Below, in pieces: positions 1,975 through 63,380 of a DNA stretch of 64,000 bases. Numbering within the stretch: position 1 is the first letter of the stretch; each line of letters begins with the position of its first letter. Under the pieces are notes generated by a model. It searched no databases, had not been told where the DNA came from, and saw only the letters and a list, made by a program, of their open reading frames with translations. The stretch lies in the NCBI RefSeq assembly GCF_020622065.1, contig NZ_JAHRYQ010000002.1:803905-867904 (forward strand), read 5' to 3'. Both the position numbers and the translations under genes were made by a program. This DNA comes from Geothrix sp. (GTDB lineage Bacteria; Acidobacteriota; Holophagae; Holophagales; Holophagaceae).

Positions 1975-3072
1975 TCACATTTCCCCCGCCCTCGGGTAGC
2001 TGCCCAGCACCTTCATGGAGGCGCAGGCGCCCTTCAGCTCGGCCAGGGCTTCGGCCATAAGGGCGTCGGCGGCGTGGCCTTCGATGTCGAGGAAGAAGGC
2101 GTATTCCCAGAGCTTGCGGCGGGTGGGGCGGCTCTGGATGCGGCTGAGGTTCAACCCGCGGCGGGCCAGTGGCTCCAGCAGGTGGAGGAGGGCGCCGGGG
2201 CCATCCTGGGCCATGGCCAGCAGGGTGGTGCGATCTCGCCCCGTGGGCTCGGCGGCCTTCGGGCCCAGCACCAGAAAGCGCGTGGCGTTGGCGGCCAGAT
2301 CCTGGATCCGCGTCTCGGCCACCTTGAGGCCGAACAGCTCCGCGGCCAGCTCCGAGGCCACGGCAGCCCCTTCCGCGTCCTCCCGCGCCAGACGCGCCGC
2401 TTCGGAGGTGGATGGCGCCTCGATGCGGTCGGCCTGGGGAAGGTGCGCCTCCAGCCAGCGGCGGCACTGACCCAGGGCCTGGGGATGGGAATAGACCCGG
2501 CGCACGGCCCCCAGATCGAGCTCGGGTCGCAGCAGCAGCGCCTGATCCACAGGCAGCAGGATCTCCGCGCAGATCCGCAGGGGGCTGTCGAGGAAGGCGT
2601 CCAGCGTGGAGTCCACCGCCCCTTCAGTGGCGTTCTCCACAGGCACCACGCCGTAGTCGGCCCGGGCCCGCTCCACCGCCTGGAACACGGCCTGGATGGT
2701 GCCCTGGGGCAGGGACTGGCTGGAGCCGCCGAACTGGTGGCGGGCCGCCAGGTGGGTGAAGGTGCCCTCGGGCCCCAGGAAGGCCACCCGGAGCGGCTTC
2801 TCCAGGCTGAGGCAGGCGCTCATAATTTCCTGGAAGATCGTGCGCACGGCCGGAGCCGGAAAGGGCCCGCCGTTCTCCGCCTCGAGGCGCGCAAGGACCT
2901 CCCGCTCGCGCTTCGGGGCATGGAAGATCCCCTCGGGCGCGGCGGCCGTCTTCAGGCGGCCCACCTCGGCGGCCAGGGCGGCCCGTTGGTTCAGCAGGGT
3001 CAGCAGCTCGTCGTCCACGCGGTCGATGGCCTGGCGGAGGCCCTGGAGGGGATCGGATGGCGTCGGGATCAC
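1975..3072 (-). CDS. pheA: Bifunctional chorismate mutase/prephenate dehydratase
   Basis: P-protein of 365 residues that converts chorismate to prephenate and then to phenylpyruvate for phenylalanine synthesis. An AroQ-type mutase helix bundle occupies about residues 8-90 (RQAIDRVDDELLTLLNQRAALA). The prephenate dehydratase domain spans about 92-270 (AFLGPEGTFTHLAA, then NATRFLVLG). The C-terminal ACT domain (GALLHLLEPLARRGLNLSRIQSRP) is the usual Phe feedback site, with Gln replacing Glu of the common ESRP motif. The start is GTG at 3072 behind AGGAG. A Phe-rich leader peptide and terminator hairpin lie directly upstream, so control by attenuation is predicted. Confidence 0.96.
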   Translation of the reverse strand: MIPTPSDPLQGLRQAIDRVDDELLTLLNQRAALAAEVGRLKTAAAPEGIFHAPKREREVLARLEAENGGPFPAPAVRTIFQEIMSACLSLEKPLRVAFLGPEGTFTHLAARHQFGGSSQSLPQGTIQAVFQAVERARADYGVVPVENATEGAVDSTLDAFLDSPLRICAEILLPVDQALLLRPELDLGAVRRVYSHPQALGQCRRWLEAHLPQADRIEAPSTSEAARLAREDAEGAAVASELAAELFGLKVAETRIQDLAANATRFLVLGPKAAEPTGRDRTTLLAMAQDGPGALLHLLEPLARRGLNLSRIQSRPTRRKLWEYAFFLDIEGHAADALMAEALAELKGACASMKVLGSYPRAGEM

Positions 3073-57102: not shown

Positions 57103-58368
57103 CTAAGCCAACCGTCGCTTCAAGGCCTCGGTCTCCGCCGCCAAGGGTTCGCTGAGCAGGGGCTTGGCCAGCAGGTCGCTGAGGGTCCTGGGCAGGGGGA
57201 TCTCGCGACCCAGGGCCGGGGTCAGGGCTTCGCGGAATTTCGCCGGATGGGCTGTGGCCAGGAAGAGGCCCTGCTCCCCGGGGCGCAGGTGGGCCCGGAG
57301 CACGGCGCAGGCCACGGCGCCGTGGGGATCGGCCAGGTAGCCCGCGCCATCCAAGGCGACCACGGTCGCCATCGTCTCCGCATCCGTGCAGCTGCCCCAG
57401 CGCAGGGCCGCCACCATGCCCCCGTGGTCGCCTCCGAACCGCGTGAAGATGCGTTCCCAGTTGCTGGGCGAGCCCACATCCATGGCGTTGGAGAGGGTGG
57501 CCACGGAGGGTCGGGGCCGGTAGGTGCCGGTGTCCAGGTAGTCGGGCACCACGCGGTTGGCGTTGGTGGCGGCCACGAAGGCGTGGATGGGGGCGCCCAT
57601 GGCCTGGGCCATCAGGCCCGCATAAAGGTTGCCGAAGTTGCCACTGGGCACGGACACCACCAGGGGCCCGGGGTCGGCCTGGGCCACAGCCTCGAAGTAG
57701 TACAGCGTCTGGGCCAGCAGCCGCGCGATGTTGATGCTGTTGGCCGAGGTCAGGCCCAATCGGGACACCTGCTCGGCGTCCTCGAAGGCCCCCTTCACCA
57801 GCCGCTGGCAGTCGTCGAAGGAACCGGCCACCGCCAGGGCGAGCACATTGCCGCCGCAGGTGGCGAACTGGCGCTCCTGCAGGGGGGACACACGGCCTGC
57901 CGGATAGAGCACCACCACCCGCACGCCCGGCAATCCCTGAAAGGCCTGGGCCACGGCAGCGCCCGTGTCGCCGGAGGTGGCCGTGAGCACCGTGCGGGGG
58001 CGGTCCCCGGCGCCCAGGGCCAGCACCCGCGCCAGGAAGCGCGCGCCGAAATCCTTGAAGGCCAGCGTGGGCCCGTGGAAGAGTTCCAGCGCCGAGAGGC
58101 GATCGCCCACCTTCACCCGAGGCGCGGGAAAGGTGAAGGCGGATCGCGCCAGCATCTCGACCACGGAACGGGGGAATTCCTCGCCCAGCAGGCGATGGAG
58201 GATCTCCGTCGCGCGCGAGGGGAAATCCAGCTTCAGCAGCTCGGAAACATCCGGAAAGCGCGGGAGCTCCACCGGCACGAAGAGGCCGCCATCGGGAGCC
58301 AGGCCCGCCTGCACGGCCGCCATGAAGGTCGCGTGAAGCCCGGGGGTGCGGGTGCTGACGAGCTTCAT
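57103..58368 (-). CDS. thrC: Threonine synthase
   Basis: A 421-residue PLP enzyme that converts O-phosphohomoserine to threonine. Motifs are LFHGPTLAFKDFGARFLARVL (PLP lysine in FKDF), TATSGDTGAAVA, SANSINIARLLAQTLYYF and VPSGNFGN. The ATG overlaps the thrB stop (ATGA), so it is the last gene of thrA-thrB-thrC. Confidence 0.96.
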   Translation of the reverse strand: MKLVSTRTPGLHATFMAAVQAGLAPDGGLFVPVELPRFPDVSELLKLDFPSRATEILHRLLGEEFPRSVVEMLARSAFTFPAPRVKVGDRLSALELFHGPTLAFKDFGARFLARVLALGAGDRPRTVLTATSGDTGAAVAQAFQGLPGVRVVVLYPAGRVSPLQERQFATCGGNVLALAVAGSFDDCQRLVKGAFEDAEQVSRLGLTSANSINIARLLAQTLYYFEAVAQADPGPLVVSVPSGNFGNLYAGLMAQAMGAPIHAFVAATNANRVVPDYLDTGTYRPRPSVATLSNAMDVGSPSNWERIFTRFGGDHGGMVAALRWGSCTDAETMATVVALDGAGYLADPHGAVACAVLRAHLRPGEQGLFLATAHPAKFREALTPALGREIPLPRTLSDLLAKPLLSEPLAAETEALKRRLA

Positions 58369-59381
58369 GGCCGGACCTCGCACCGCGAGGACCGGAACCC
58401 GGCCGGCAGCACCCGGGCCCCTTCCGGATCCAACGCGCAGACCCAGCCCTGGCTGGCCAGCCCCGCCCCCTCGAAGGCCCCGCGAATGGCCTCAGCGATG
58501 GCCAGGGCCTGGGTTTCATCCTCGGCCACCGCGAAGACGGAGGGCCCCGACCCCGACAGGCTGCAGCCGAGGGCGCCCAGGCGCCTCGCCGCTGCCTGCG
58601 CCGCCCGGAAGCCCGGCACCAGCGGCGCGCGGTGCACCTCCACCAGGGGATCCCGCAGGCACCGCCCGAGCAGCGCACGGTCCCCACTGTGCAGGGCCTG
58701 CACCAGCCCGGTGAGGTTGCCCGCGAAGGCCACCGTCTCGGGCCACCCCGGGTGCTCGGGCAGGACGCGACGGCTGTCCGCCGTGGACAGCCGGAGCTCG
58801 GGATGCACCACCACCATCAGCAGGTCCGCGGGCCAGGGCAGGCGCCGGGCGGCGGCTTTCCCCTCCCGGCCCGGCACCACCAGCTGGAGCCCGCCCAGCA
58901 GCGAGGGCACCACATTGTCGAGGTGGATGCCGCCGCTGGTGGAACCCTCCGCCTGCCCCGCCAAGTCCAGCAGCTCGGGCACGCTGAGCGGATCGCCGCA
59001 CAGGGCCTGGAGCCCGACCAGCGTCGCCACGATGGAGCTGGCGCTGGATCCCAGACCGCTGGCCACGGGAAGGCACTTCTCCAGGGTGATGGCGAAGGGT
59101 CCGGCCCCGCCGCCCCCCGCGCGCAGGGCCGCCAGGAAGAGGTCGCGGGCCTTCAGGGCGAGGTTGGGCCGGGGATCGTCCGCCAACGCGGTGGCGAAGG
59201 GACCCGTCACCCGGAAGGAGTCGTTCTCGGCGGGCGCGATGGATACGAGGTCCCCGAGCAGGCTGCCGTCCAGCGGCGCCAGCGCCGCGCCCAGCAGGTC
59301 GAATCCCGCGGCCACATTGCCGATGCTGGCAGGGGCGAAGGCCACCACGCCTTCAGAAGATGGATCAGAGGACCTCGTCAT
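58365..59381 (-). CDS. thrB: Homoserine kinase
   Basis: A 338-residue GHMP kinase that phosphorylates homoserine. The substrate and ATP loops are FAPASIGNVAAGFDLLGAAL and LEKCLPVASGLGSSASSIVATL, with a C-terminal LGCSLSGSGPSVFAVA. The start overlaps the thrA stop (TGATG), and its stop overlaps the thrC start, so the three genes are translationally coupled. Confidence 0.95.
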   Translation of the reverse strand: MTRSSDPSSEGVVAFAPASIGNVAAGFDLLGAALAPLDGSLLGDLVSIAPAENDSFRVTGPFATALADDPRPNLALKARDLFLAALRAGGGGAGPFAITLEKCLPVASGLGSSASSIVATLVGLQALCGDPLSVPELLDLAGQAEGSTSGGIHLDNVVPSLLGGLQLVVPGREGKAAARRLPWPADLLMVVVHPELRLSTADSRRVLPEHPGWPETVAFAGNLTGLVQALHSGDRALLGRCLRDPLVEVHRAPLVPGFRAAQAAARRLGALGCSLSGSGPSVFAVAEDETQALAIAEAIRGAFEGAGLASQGWVCALDPEGARVLPAGFRSSRCEVRP

Positions 59382-61858
59382 CAGCGCCTCCGGGCCGGGC
59401 GGGCCCCGGGGGGCACCAGGCGCAGGATGTCGGCCAGCACGCCGGCGGCCGTCACTTCGGCGCCGGCTCCATATCCGCGGATGACCATGGGATGGGGCTG
59501 GTAGCGCTCTGTCAGCAGGGCCAGGGCATTCTCGCCGCCCTTGATGGCGATGAAGGGGTGCTCGGCGTCCACGGGCAGGAGGCCCACACGACACCCCTGG
59601 TCCGACAGGGAACCCACATAGCGGAGGGTCTTCCCTTCAGCCTTCAGGGCCGCCAGCCGCTCGCGGAAGGGGGCGTCCAGCTGGGGCAGACGGGCCAGGA
59701 AGGCGGGGATGTCGCCGCTGGCATCGAAGTCCGCGGGCAGCAGGCCTTCCACCGCCACATCCTCGAGCTCCAGTTCCAGGCCCAGCTCCCGGGCCAGGAT
59801 GAGCAGCTTGCGCGCCACATCCATGCCGCTGAGGTCGTCGCGGGGATCAGGTTCGGTGAAGCCGCTGTCCTTGGCCCGGTGCACGGCTTCGGACAAGGCC
59901 ACGCCTTCGCCCAGCAGGCCGAGGATGTACGACATGGAGCCCGACAGGATGCCTTCCGCCCTCAGCACGCGGTCGCCGGTGAGCACCAGGTTCTTCACCG
60001 TGTCGATGATGGGCAGGCCCGCGCCCACATTGGCCTCGTAGAGGAACCGCAAGCCGCGGCGCGACGACCGTTCACGCAGCTCGCGGTAGAAGGCCTGGGA
60101 GCTGCTGTTCGCCTTCTTGTTGGCGGCCACCACATGGAACCCGGCCTCGAACAGATCCGGGTACCGGGCTGCCAGCTCGCCACTGGTGCTGCAATCCACC
60201 AGCACCGACAGGGCCGGAGGCCCCCCGCGCACGGTCTCGATGAGCCGCTCCAGATCCATCGGTTCACCCAGGACCAGGTCCTCGCGCCAGCGTGTGAGGT
60301 CGAGGCCCGCCGCATCCATTTTCATGCGGCGGCTGGTGGCGATGGTCGTCACGCGGAGATCCAGTCCCTGGGCCAGCAGCCGTTCATGCTGCCGGTGGAT
60401 CTGTCCCAGCAGGCTGCCGCCCACATTCCCGGCGCCGAGCAGATGGACATCCACCACCACCCGGGTCTGGAAGAAGCGCCGGTGGATGTGGGCCAGGGCC
60501 CGGGCCCCATCGCCCTCCTCCACCACCGCCGAGATGATGCGCTCGCTGGCACCCTGGGCGATGGCCACCACATTGCAGCCCACTTCGGCCAGGGCCTCGA
60601 AGAAGGTGCCAGCCACCCCCGGCCGGGTGCGCATGCCATCCCCCACGATGCTCAGCACCGCGAGGCCCTCGCGCAGGGCCACCGGATCCATGAAGCCCGC
60701 CGACAATTCCGCGGGGAAGGCCTCCTCGATGGCGGCCACCGCGGCGGGACCATCCGCCCGGCGCACAGCAAAGCAGATGGAGAGCTCGGACGAACTCTGG
60801 GTGATGAGCACGACGGAGATGCCCCTGCGGGCCAGGGCGCCGAACACGCGCCCGGCGATGCCCGGCACGCCGGGCATGCCGGGGCCCGTCAGGTTCACCA
60901 CCGAGAGGTCGCGCAGGAAGGACAGCCCCCGCACCCCACTGGGCGGCGGCGGCACCTCGCCGCGGATCACCGTGCCGGGGTGGGCCGGGTCGAAGCTGCT
61001 GCACACCCGCACCGGGATGCCGCGTTCCCGCACCGGGGGAATGGTCTTCGGGTGCAGCACCTTGGCCCCGAAGAAGGACAGCTCCATGGCCTCCTCGAAG
61101 CTCGCCTCCGGCAGCGGGAAGGCCTCAGGCACCAGGGTGGGATCGGCGCTGTAGAGGCCGGCCACATTGGTCCAGATCTCCAGCAGCTCCGCGCCGAGGG
61201 CGGCGGCGGCCAGGGCGGCGCTGTGGTCCGAGCCGCCCCGGCCCAACGAGAGGATGCGCCCCTGCCCATCGCCGCCGAAGAAGCCCGGCAGCACCCAGAG
61301 CCCGCCCTCCGCGGCCTTCACGGCGGCGAAGCCCGCCTCGATGTCCGCACTGCGCGGCCGGGCCTGGAGCGGATCGCCCTCCACCTTGATGTGCGCCACA
61401 GGATCGAGGTACCGGGGGGCGAGGCCGCGGGCTTTCAGCAGCCCCAGCAAAATGGCGCCGGCCGCCCGTTCACCCAGGCTGGAGACTTGCGCCAGCACCG
61501 AGGGCGGGCCCTCCTCCAGCAGGGCCATGCCCTGCAACAGGCGGCGCCCGAGCCCTTCGAGGGCGTCCAGCTCCTCACGCACCGGAACCGCCTCGGGTCC
61601 CAGATCCCCCGCCAGCTCCGTCACCACCTCGGCGTGCCGCGCCCGGAAGGTGGCGATGAGCCGATCCGCCTCCTCCCGGTCGGGCACGCGCCCCCCGTGC
61701 AGCAGCAGGTTGGTGATCCCCGCCATGGCGGAGGCCACCACGCAGACGCGGTGGGTGGCGCGAGCGGCGGCCACCAGGTCGGCCACGGTGCGGAACCGGC
61801 CCGCCCCGGCCAGGCTGGTGCCGCCGAACTTCATGACTCTGATGGCGGGGGCGGGCAT
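59381..61858 (-). CDS. thrA: Bifunctional aspartokinase/homoserine dehydrogenase
   Basis: An 825-residue fusion covering the first and third steps from aspartate to threonine and methionine. The kinase half begins [15 protein letters not shown] and has [36 protein letters not shown] in outline. Two ACT-type repeats follow at about 300-460 ([25 protein letters not shown] and [19 protein letters not shown]). The dehydrogenase half has [21 protein letters not shown] and [10 protein letters not shown] with [25 protein letters not shown] 61858 is chosen for GGAG. An attenuator with Met/Thr-rich leader precedes it. Confidence 0.95.
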
Positions 61859-61882: not shown

Positions 61883-61957
61883 AGCCCCGCGTGGGATACG
61901 CGGGGCTGAGTCTGAGGGTTGGAAATCAGGTCAGGTGCCCCGCACGCCGGTGGGCGT
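61883..61957 (-). promoter_or_regulatory. Transcription attenuator of thrABC
   Basis: The terminator is AGCCCCGCG/CGCGGGGCT (61899-61907 with 61883-61891) with a 7-base loop and a six-T run. Its 5' arm GCCCCGC can instead pair with GCGGGGC at 61937-61943, inside the end of the leader peptide, giving an antiterminator. That segment is adjacent to a small ACGCC/GGCGT hairpin (61944-61957) over the last Thr codons. This is the usual 1:2, 2:3, 3:4 scheme, in which stalling at Met/Thr codons would permit readthrough. Confidence 0.78.
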
Positions 61958-62068
61958 ATTGGTCATGCCAGTCATGCCGGTCATGGCAAACAAGTGGACG
62001 GACCCCACGCCGGTCGTGCCGGCGGGCCCGAAGGCCGTGGGGTTCATCGAAATCGTCATGTCCGACAT
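61931..62068 (-). CDS. thrL: Met/Thr-rich leader peptide of the thr operon
   Basis: A 45-codon frame ends 24 bases before the terminator stem. Residues 29-45 are MTGMTGMTNTPTGVRGT, three Met and six Thr in seventeen; overall there are ten Thr and six Met. An AGGA-like sequence lies just before the ATG at 62068, with tight spacing, so a later ATG (62046) could be the real start. The Thr/Met content fits control of the aspartate pathway, whose ThrA product feeds both amino acids. The known E. coli leader uses Thr and Ile instead. Confidence 0.72.
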   Translation of the reverse strand: MSDMTISMNPTAFGPAGTTGVGSVHLFAMTGMTGMTNTPTGVRGT

Positions 62069-62090
62069 CTTCCTGGAAGCCGCCTGAATG

Positions 62091-63380
62091 TCAACCCTGT
62101 TCCCCCGCCGGCCGGCCCTTCACCCGGCGCCCCAGCGCCAGGCTGCTGCCCAGCCAGAGGCCCGAGCAGCCCACGGCCGCCAATCCCACCGGAATGGCGA
62201 GCGCCACGAGGGCCGTGGGCGCCCACACGCCCAGCAGGTCGCCGCCCCGGTAGACGAAAGTGTCGATGAAGGGCTTCGACTTGTAGCGTTCTTCCGGGCC
62301 CAGCGGAATGTAGAGGATCTCGCGGGCCGGCCGGTCCACGGCATAGTGCAGGCCACGGCGCAGCACCTGGAAGAGCGCCATCATGCCGAAGGTGGGCCAG
62401 ATCCACAGGGCGCCGAAGCCCAGCAGGCTCAGCACGGGGAGAATGGACAGCACCACCGGGATGCCCAGTCCCGTCAGGAGGCGGCCGGTGAGGAAGACCT
62501 GGGTCGCCAGGGTGAGCACATTCACCCAGAGGTCGATGCGGGCGAAGGCCGCCGTGCGGGCGGCGGTGCCGCTGAAGGTCCGTTCGACGATGGCGCCCTG
62601 CTGCAGGTAGAGGAAGGTGCTGGTGATGGTGAAGAGCAGCATGTAGGCGCAGATGAGCTGCAGGTAGCGCGATTTCGCGATGAGCTTGAGCCCCTCCAGG
62701 GGGCCGGGTCCGGGCTCCCGCTCGCCGTGGGCCTGGTCGCCCAGGCGGAAGATGGCCGCCAGGCGCCCCACGCACTGCACCGCCAACTCCAGCGTCAGCA
62801 TCGACAGCAGCAGCAGCGACAGGGGATCCACCTTCAGGGGGAGACCCCCCAGCGTGAAGCCCTTGGTGAGGGCCCCCGTGAGGGCGGCCCCGGCGATGGC
62901 GCCCAGGGTGCCGCCCGTGGCGATGAAGCCGAAGAGGCGCTTGCCCTGGGTCTGGGTCCACACATCCGACATCAGGCCCCAGAACACCGAGACCACGAAG
63001 AGGTTGAAGACGCTGAGCCAAATGTAGAAGGCGTAGCCCAGGGCCGCGCCGCCGCGGTGGGGCAGGAAGCGGAAGGCCAGGAAGAAGGCCAGCATGTTCA
63101 GCCCGAAGAAGCGGTAGGCCCATGGGATGAACCGCCGGCGCGGCAGCTTCGACACCAGGGCCGCGAAGGCCGGGTTCGCCAGCGCCATGGCCAGCAGGGT
63201 GCCCGTCATCAGCCAGGGCAGCTTGTCCGCCCCCCGGGCGATGCCGATGGCCTCGCGGACGGGCCGCAGCAGGTAGAAGCCGAAGAGCAGCAGGAAGAAA
63301 TACAGGGTCGACCAGAGCAGAGCCGGGGCTTCACCCTCGTCGAGCATCACCAGGCGTCGGAGGAGGCGGGCGGGCGTCAT
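62091..63380 (-). CDS. NTP/NDP exchange transporter-like MFS protein
   Basis: A 429-residue protein with about eleven to twelve TMs. It resembles the ATP/ADP translocase-like MFS family of bacteria, with LLRPVREAIGIARGADKLPWL near the start and DRPAREILYIPLGPEERYKSKPFIDTFVYRGGDLLGVWAP near the end. Free-living members have unknown substrates. ATG 63380 is chosen over upstream starts. Its stop lies inside the TTGACA-like sequence before the thr leader. Confidence 0.82.
   Translation of the reverse strand: MTPARLLRRLVMLDEGEAPALLWSTLYFFLLLFGFYLLRPVREAIGIARGADKLPWLMTGTLLAMALANPAFAALVSKLPRRRFIPWAYRFFGLNMLAFFLAFRFLPHRGGAALGYAFYIWLSVFNLFVVSVFWGLMSDVWTQTQGKRLFGFIATGGTLGAIAGAALTGALTKGFTLGGLPLKVDPLSLLLLSMLTLELAVQCVGRLAAIFRLGDQAHGEREPGPGPLEGLKLIAKSRYLQLICAYMLLFTITSTFLYLQQGAIVERTFSGTAARTAAFARIDLWVNVLTLATQVFLTGRLLTGLGIPVVLSILPVLSLLGFGALWIWPTFGMMALFQVLRRGLHYAVDRPAREILYIPLGPEERYKSKPFIDTFVYRGGDLLGVWAPTALVALAIPVGLAAVGCSGLWLGSSLALGRRVKGRPAGEQG

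Follow-up and report, generated by a model that had tools for sequence, protein, structure and literature searches.

A threonine-responsive leader-peptide attenuator predicted upstream of thrABC in Geothrix and across Holophagaceae

The thrABC operon of enterobacteria is preceded by a leader that combines a Thr- and Ile-rich peptide (21 amino acids in E. coli thrL) with a terminator and a competing antiterminator. Does thrABC of Geothrix sp. carry a comparable switch, and if so, which amino acids would it read? We addressed this question in a stretch of 64,000 nucleotides from the genome of a Geothrix sp., a soil and sediment bacterium of the Holophagaceae, phylum Acidobacteriota (hereafter the window, meaning the whole of the DNA analyzed), for which an original prediction had proposed an attenuator before thrABC with a leader peptide sensing both Met and Thr. 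On the minus strand, a -35 box, a -10 box, the leader open reading frame (ORF), a gap of 23 nt, a terminator and thrA (start 61858) follow one another in that order, and the coordinates of thrA, thrB and thrC overlap head to tail (Table 1). The genome to which the window belongs (G000) has a single PF00742 match, making ThrA its sole homoserine dehydrogenase. An Rfam scan of the window placed tRNA as the only model above gathering score, and the Thr_leader family (RF00506) gave no match even at E values up to 10; the element therefore has no detectable sequence homology to that family, although it would work like a thr leader.

Table 1. Coordinates of the two leader regions and their genes within the window
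Feature	Position	Strand	Description
-35 box TTGACA	62089..62094	-	predicted leader promoter; sequence and conserved spacing across 8 genera
-10 box GAAGAT	62067..62072	-	16-nt spacer; weak TATAAT match, placed by position and conservation
Leader ORF (thrL)	61931..62059	-	42 aa, MTISMNPTAFGPAGTTGVGSVHLFAMTGMTGMTNTPTGVRGT; predicted leaderless, AUG at predicted +1; in-frame equivalents before thrA in 55 genomes
Stall zone AMTGMTGMTNTP	61952..61987	-	codons -18 to -7 from stop; holds tandem repeat ATGACCGGC/ATGACTGGC/ATGACC
Segment A TGCGGGGC	61937..61944	-	5' arm of the antiterminator, within the final leader codons; forms 8 pairs with segment B at -18.0 kcal/mol
Segment B GCCCCGCG	61899..61906	-	5' arm of terminator; common to antiterminator and terminator
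Intrinsic terminator AGCCCCGCGTATCCCACGCGGGGCT-TTTTTG	61883..61907	-	10-pair stem, then six T; segment C = 61884-61891
thrA	59381..61858	-	bifunctional aspartokinase-homoserine dehydrogenase; Pfam AA_kinase, ACT, NAD_binding_3, Homoserine_dh
thrB	58365..59381	-	homoserine kinase (GHMP kinase); Pfam GHMP_kinases_N/C; ATGA overlap with thrA
thrC	57103..58368	-	threonine synthase; Pfam Thr_synth_N, PALP
Phe leader peptide MPTPRCFFAFSFRTPGAGVDGF and terminator	3210-3094	-	upstream of pheA
pheA	1975-3072	-	chorismate mutase/prephenate dehydratase, Pfam

The leader element is present in 55 of the 58 family genomes that have a homoserine dehydrogenase, over eight genera: it lies before thrA in every one of the 36 genus genomes having thrA, and in 19 further family genomes distributed over seven other genera, a recurrence that exceeds chance. 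Relatives at 84–90% ThrA identity that bear names are Geothrix species and other Holophagaceae, Geothrix fermentans DSM 14018 among them. At all 55 loci a Thr-rich run ends the leader ORF, and a hairpin of like design follows at close spacing. A covariance model comprising the leader end and the terminator, built from 19 of the 36 genus loci, gave a single strong match per genome (77–99 bits) in 36/36, each time immediately before thrA; in the 11 genus genomes devoid of a homoserine dehydrogenase, no hit scored above 31 bits. The anatomy of an attenuator (leader, terminator and antiterminator) can be seen in the sequence and is conserved across the family, which lends good support to the proposal of a thrABC attenuator. 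The three family genomes with a homoserine dehydrogenase and no such leader are G055, G114 and G115; in G114 and G115 the enzymes are monofunctional, and the DNA read from these two showed no leader. Such a leader is likewise absent from six full-length thrA genes (L045–L050) that belong to families elsewhere in the class and phylum.

The lack of a homoserine dehydrogenase match in 11 of the 47 genus genomes (G001, G008, G018, G040, G043 and six less complete ones) is an observation in its own right. G040 is a complete one-contig genome, yet it has neither the enzyme nor the thr leader, and most of the 11 keep SAM riboswitches. These genomes possibly reflect Thr/Met auxotrophy or another, unknown route to homoserine.

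We then turn to the beginning of the leader. The frame originally proposed (MSDMTISMNPTAFGPAGTTGVGSVHLFAMTGMTGMTNTPTGVRGT, 62068-61931 on the minus strand) is the right one, its start codon excepted: the ATG at 62068 falls within the predicted -10 hexamer, and the start is therefore probably the ATG at 62059, seven bases beyond that box. The distance from TTGAC (or TTGCG) to the leader ATG is 35–36 nt in 53 of the 54 loci with enough sequence, across eight genera, the sole exception being L092, where a -35-type box lies 42 nt before the ATG; of the 48 TTGAC sites in the window, just 3 are followed by an ATG at that distance of 35–36 nt, the one at the thr leader among them. With a -10 box in between (GATGAT rather than GAAGAT in most Geothrix relatives), this spacing would place the transcription start at the leader AUG and not downstream of the leader frame. 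The -10 boxes match the consensus weakly, and a scan for sigma-70 sites found none by its own rule. A Shine-Dalgarno core precedes 8 of 54 leader ATGs, as compared to 51 of 54 thrA starts. Because the spacing from -35 box to ATG is constant and the Shine-Dalgarno core is mostly absent, the leader is probably leaderless, starting at 62059 rather than 62068.

The other end of the leader carries the terminator, which had been predicted with the right coordinates; we count its stem as 10 pairs, followed by six T. Two terminator-like sites were observed in the region, as compared to 0.3 expected, and a terminator was detected at 53 of the 55 family loci, a few of which have poor T tracts (L029, L031, L032, L086 and L087). 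The matching antiterminator segment was also found, in that A pairs with B; wherever a terminator was detected in a genus, this pairing is strong. In each of seven genera tested, the genus's own A:B pairing is more stable than cross-genus mixtures; by their sequences, A and B change together across genera. Among 19 genus sequences, 95.4% of A:B cells are paired as compared to 34–62% for slid partners; no covariation of A:B was seen within these 19 sequences, which is uninformative since A and B are nearly invariant there. A further sliding-partner control discriminated only moderately in this GC-rich DNA: A is the best partner of B in 27 of 53 leaders, and in the remaining 26 some upstream stretch pairs better. 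The conserved C-terminal RGT/RGA of the Geothrix leaders is probably due to the RNA constraint on segment A.

Folding with a ribosome mask at successive positions indicates how these segments may compete. Averaged over 27 leaders, A:B retains 0.3 pairs when the ribosome is masked at the stop codon and forms about 8.5–9 pairs when it is stalled anywhere from codon -16 to codon -8. As long as C has not been transcribed, an A-site codon at about -7/-8 or further upstream allows A:B to form, whereas one from -4 to the stop abolishes it, again as a mean of 27 leaders; in ribosome-free folding A:B would form first, before C is made. In these models, then, the antiterminator excludes the terminator, and a ribosome that has reached the stop codon masks the antiterminator in turn. 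When the window's leader is folded at full length, the terminator wins over A:B even without a ribosome; antitermination must therefore be kinetic, decided during transcription as in other attenuators.

Together, these features very probably constitute a ribosome-mediated thrABC attenuator responding to charged tRNA-Thr, with a contribution from Ile and possibly from Met. In the mechanism that we infer, transcription would start on the leader AUG (62059), give or take a base, and the leaderless 5' end would be where ribosomes load. With ample Thr, the ribosome would reach the stop codon and cover segment A, so that B pairs with C and the terminator halts transcription ahead of thrA. With charged tRNA-Thr in short supply, the ribosome would stall in the Thr-rich codons at -18 to -7, and A would pair with B before C is made, blocking the terminator and allowing read-through into thrABC. 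The leader thus probably switches thrABC on at low threonine.

Could the short ORF be incidental, lying by accident before a terminator that is constitutive or controlled by a factor? Intergenic terminators are common and others are present in the window, but the ORF is open and in frame at all 55 loci, keeps a fixed spacing to its promoter and ends on a segment complementary to the terminator, and the Thr richness is confined to the leader frame, the other two frames not being Thr-rich; we regard this reading as very unlikely. A functional small protein of 42–45 amino acids, rather than a leader peptide, would fit an ORF longer than typical leaders; however, the lengths range from 23 to 48 amino acids, the N-terminal half shows barely any conservation from genus to genus, and conservation is limited to the Thr codons, the stop position and the RNA complementarity, which makes a protein function highly improbable. 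Codon usage in the stall zone, by contrast, bears on which amino acids the attenuator would read. After dereplication at 60% identity of the last 25 residues, 28 leaders were left; their codons were counted over the zone lying 5–16 codons before the stop (336 codons), with four window proteins as background. The zone holds 127 Thr codons (37.8%, against 4.3% in the background), 28 Ile, 24 Met, 22 Asn and 1 Lys, which amounts to 8.7, 2.5, 4.5, 4.6 and 0.2 times background, respectively; these folds, and p-values such as the 1e-7 obtained for Met, are rough, owing to the small background and the relatedness of the leaders. Every leader has Thr in the zone (28/28), as compared to 19 with Ile, 17 with Asn and 15 with Met, and Thr is, as read from these codons, the constant signal of the leader. 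The stall zone is low in G+C and uses the otherwise rare codons ATT, GGT and ACT.

The possibility that has to be weighed most closely is that of a selected gate for Met plus Thr (or Thr, Ile and Met), in which a shortage of Met, too, would make the ribosome stall and so turn the operon on; the Met codons would then have been selected because ThrA is the sole route to homoserine, supplying Met, Thr and Ile. Consistent with such a gate, ThrA is the only homoserine dehydrogenase both in G000 and in the genus genomes having one, and Met occurs in zones from nearly all genera. Examples of Met-bearing zones are MTMIMTT (g7), TIMMIGT (g9) and VMMITMATTT (g11). Yet Met is not conserved in the 28 zones beyond non-product codons, and since Asn is equally enriched although the operon does not make it, the enrichment of Met does not by itself show Met sensing. 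Moreover, Met is missing from 13 of the 28 zones and has no fixed position, it is also raised (4.2%) in the non-sensing N-terminal half of the leaders, and g7, which has a second homoserine dehydrogenase match, has leaders that rank with the richest in Met, contrary to what the gate predicts. The three Met codons of the window are one 9-nt unit repeated in tandem, common only to G032, and comparison of leaders upstream of thrA did not support conservation of the Met/Thr run: MTGMTGMT occurs only in the window and in G032, its closest relative (97% ThrA identity), and elsewhere the leaders have runs of Thr and Ile, for instance NTNGITTTTHTAVRGT, MTTTNGTITHPD and ATTTTTITTIEA. Mutational spill-over was considered as a source of the Met codons and fails to explain the low counts of Ala and Lys. 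The methionine branch is, furthermore, already under the control of SAM-I riboswitches, of which G000 has two; one lies ahead of an operon with metY and, more distally, a second aspartokinase (L104, G000:C1:341000-346500), which gives this branch its own sensor. With ThrA as the only homoserine dehydrogenase, a Met input to the thr leader remains plausible, and we consider a selected Met gate unlikely on balance. Of the Met-plus-Thr leader originally proposed, then, the Thr component is well supported and the two-amino-acid gate is not established. As no other homoserine dehydrogenase exists in the cell than that of the operon, one could also envisage a leaderless leader that senses Thr, Ile and Met in one attenuator, with codon shares drifting between species; this we think doubtful.

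A different arrangement was seen in G055 (L096, G055:C1:318500-325500), where one operon behind a SAM-I riboswitch contains metY, a gene with a metX-like ending, an aspartokinase, a homoserine dehydrogenase and asd, with metY and asd recognized by eye from the sequence. Here the aspartokinase and homoserine dehydrogenase are, to judge from this arrangement, under methionine control instead of the thr leader.

The window was also said to hold a second leader-peptide attenuator, and it does: a Phe leader before pheA (Table 1). It was kept in 30 of 30 genus loci read, as M..SRRFFAFSFRTSGARVGGV, and has a very short predicted 5' UTR. Like the thr leader, it combines a peptide rich in codons for the product with a terminator before a biosynthetic gene; it differs in that it is predicted to sense Phe and in that its promoter-to-AUG distance is ~42 nt rather than 35–36 nt.

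How does the Geothrix element compare with known systems? With the enterobacterial thr attenuator (thrL; RF00506) it has in common a thrABC operon with a bifunctional ThrA, a Thr/Ile-rich leader, and a terminator with its antiterminator, and, as in E. coli, a stop codon placed so that the terminating ribosome would free the terminator. By contrast, the Geothrix leader is longer, predicted to be leaderless and sometimes endowed with Met codons, and a simple A:B:C switch was found in place of a demonstrated 1:2:3:4 set. Leaderless leader peptides have been described elsewhere: the trpL leader transcript of Sinorhizobium meliloti has the leader ORF's start codon at its very 5' end (PMC7298713), and in Streptomyces lividans the leader peptides leuL, trpL, ilvL, thrL (before thrS) and metL are leaderless, metL mixing Met and Thr codons and thrL controlling thrS without a clear terminator (PMC8079986). 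In these members of the Alphaproteobacteria and Actinobacteria the leaderless form was established by mapped transcript ends, whereas in Geothrix it is predicted from promoter-to-AUG spacing; and the Geothrix candidate, in an acidobacteriotal genome, sits on thrABC, whereas S. lividans thrL sits on thrS. A survey from 2010 listed almost no predicted Acidobacteria attenuators with an assigned function and knew leader-peptide systems only from Proteobacteria and Actinobacteria at that time (PMC2965389). Our full-text literature search, whose coverage mostly excludes subscription journals, returned nothing specific on thr attenuation in Acidobacteria. The mechanism and the leaderless form thus have precedents; to judge from the literature searched, the novelty lies in their assignment in Acidobacteriota.

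These data provide a fully anatomized, family-wide candidate thr attenuator, together with a second one on pheA, in a phylum in which almost none had been assigned. The constant promoter-to-AUG spacing moreover yields a sharp and cheap prediction, namely that Geothrix would translate leaderless transcripts.
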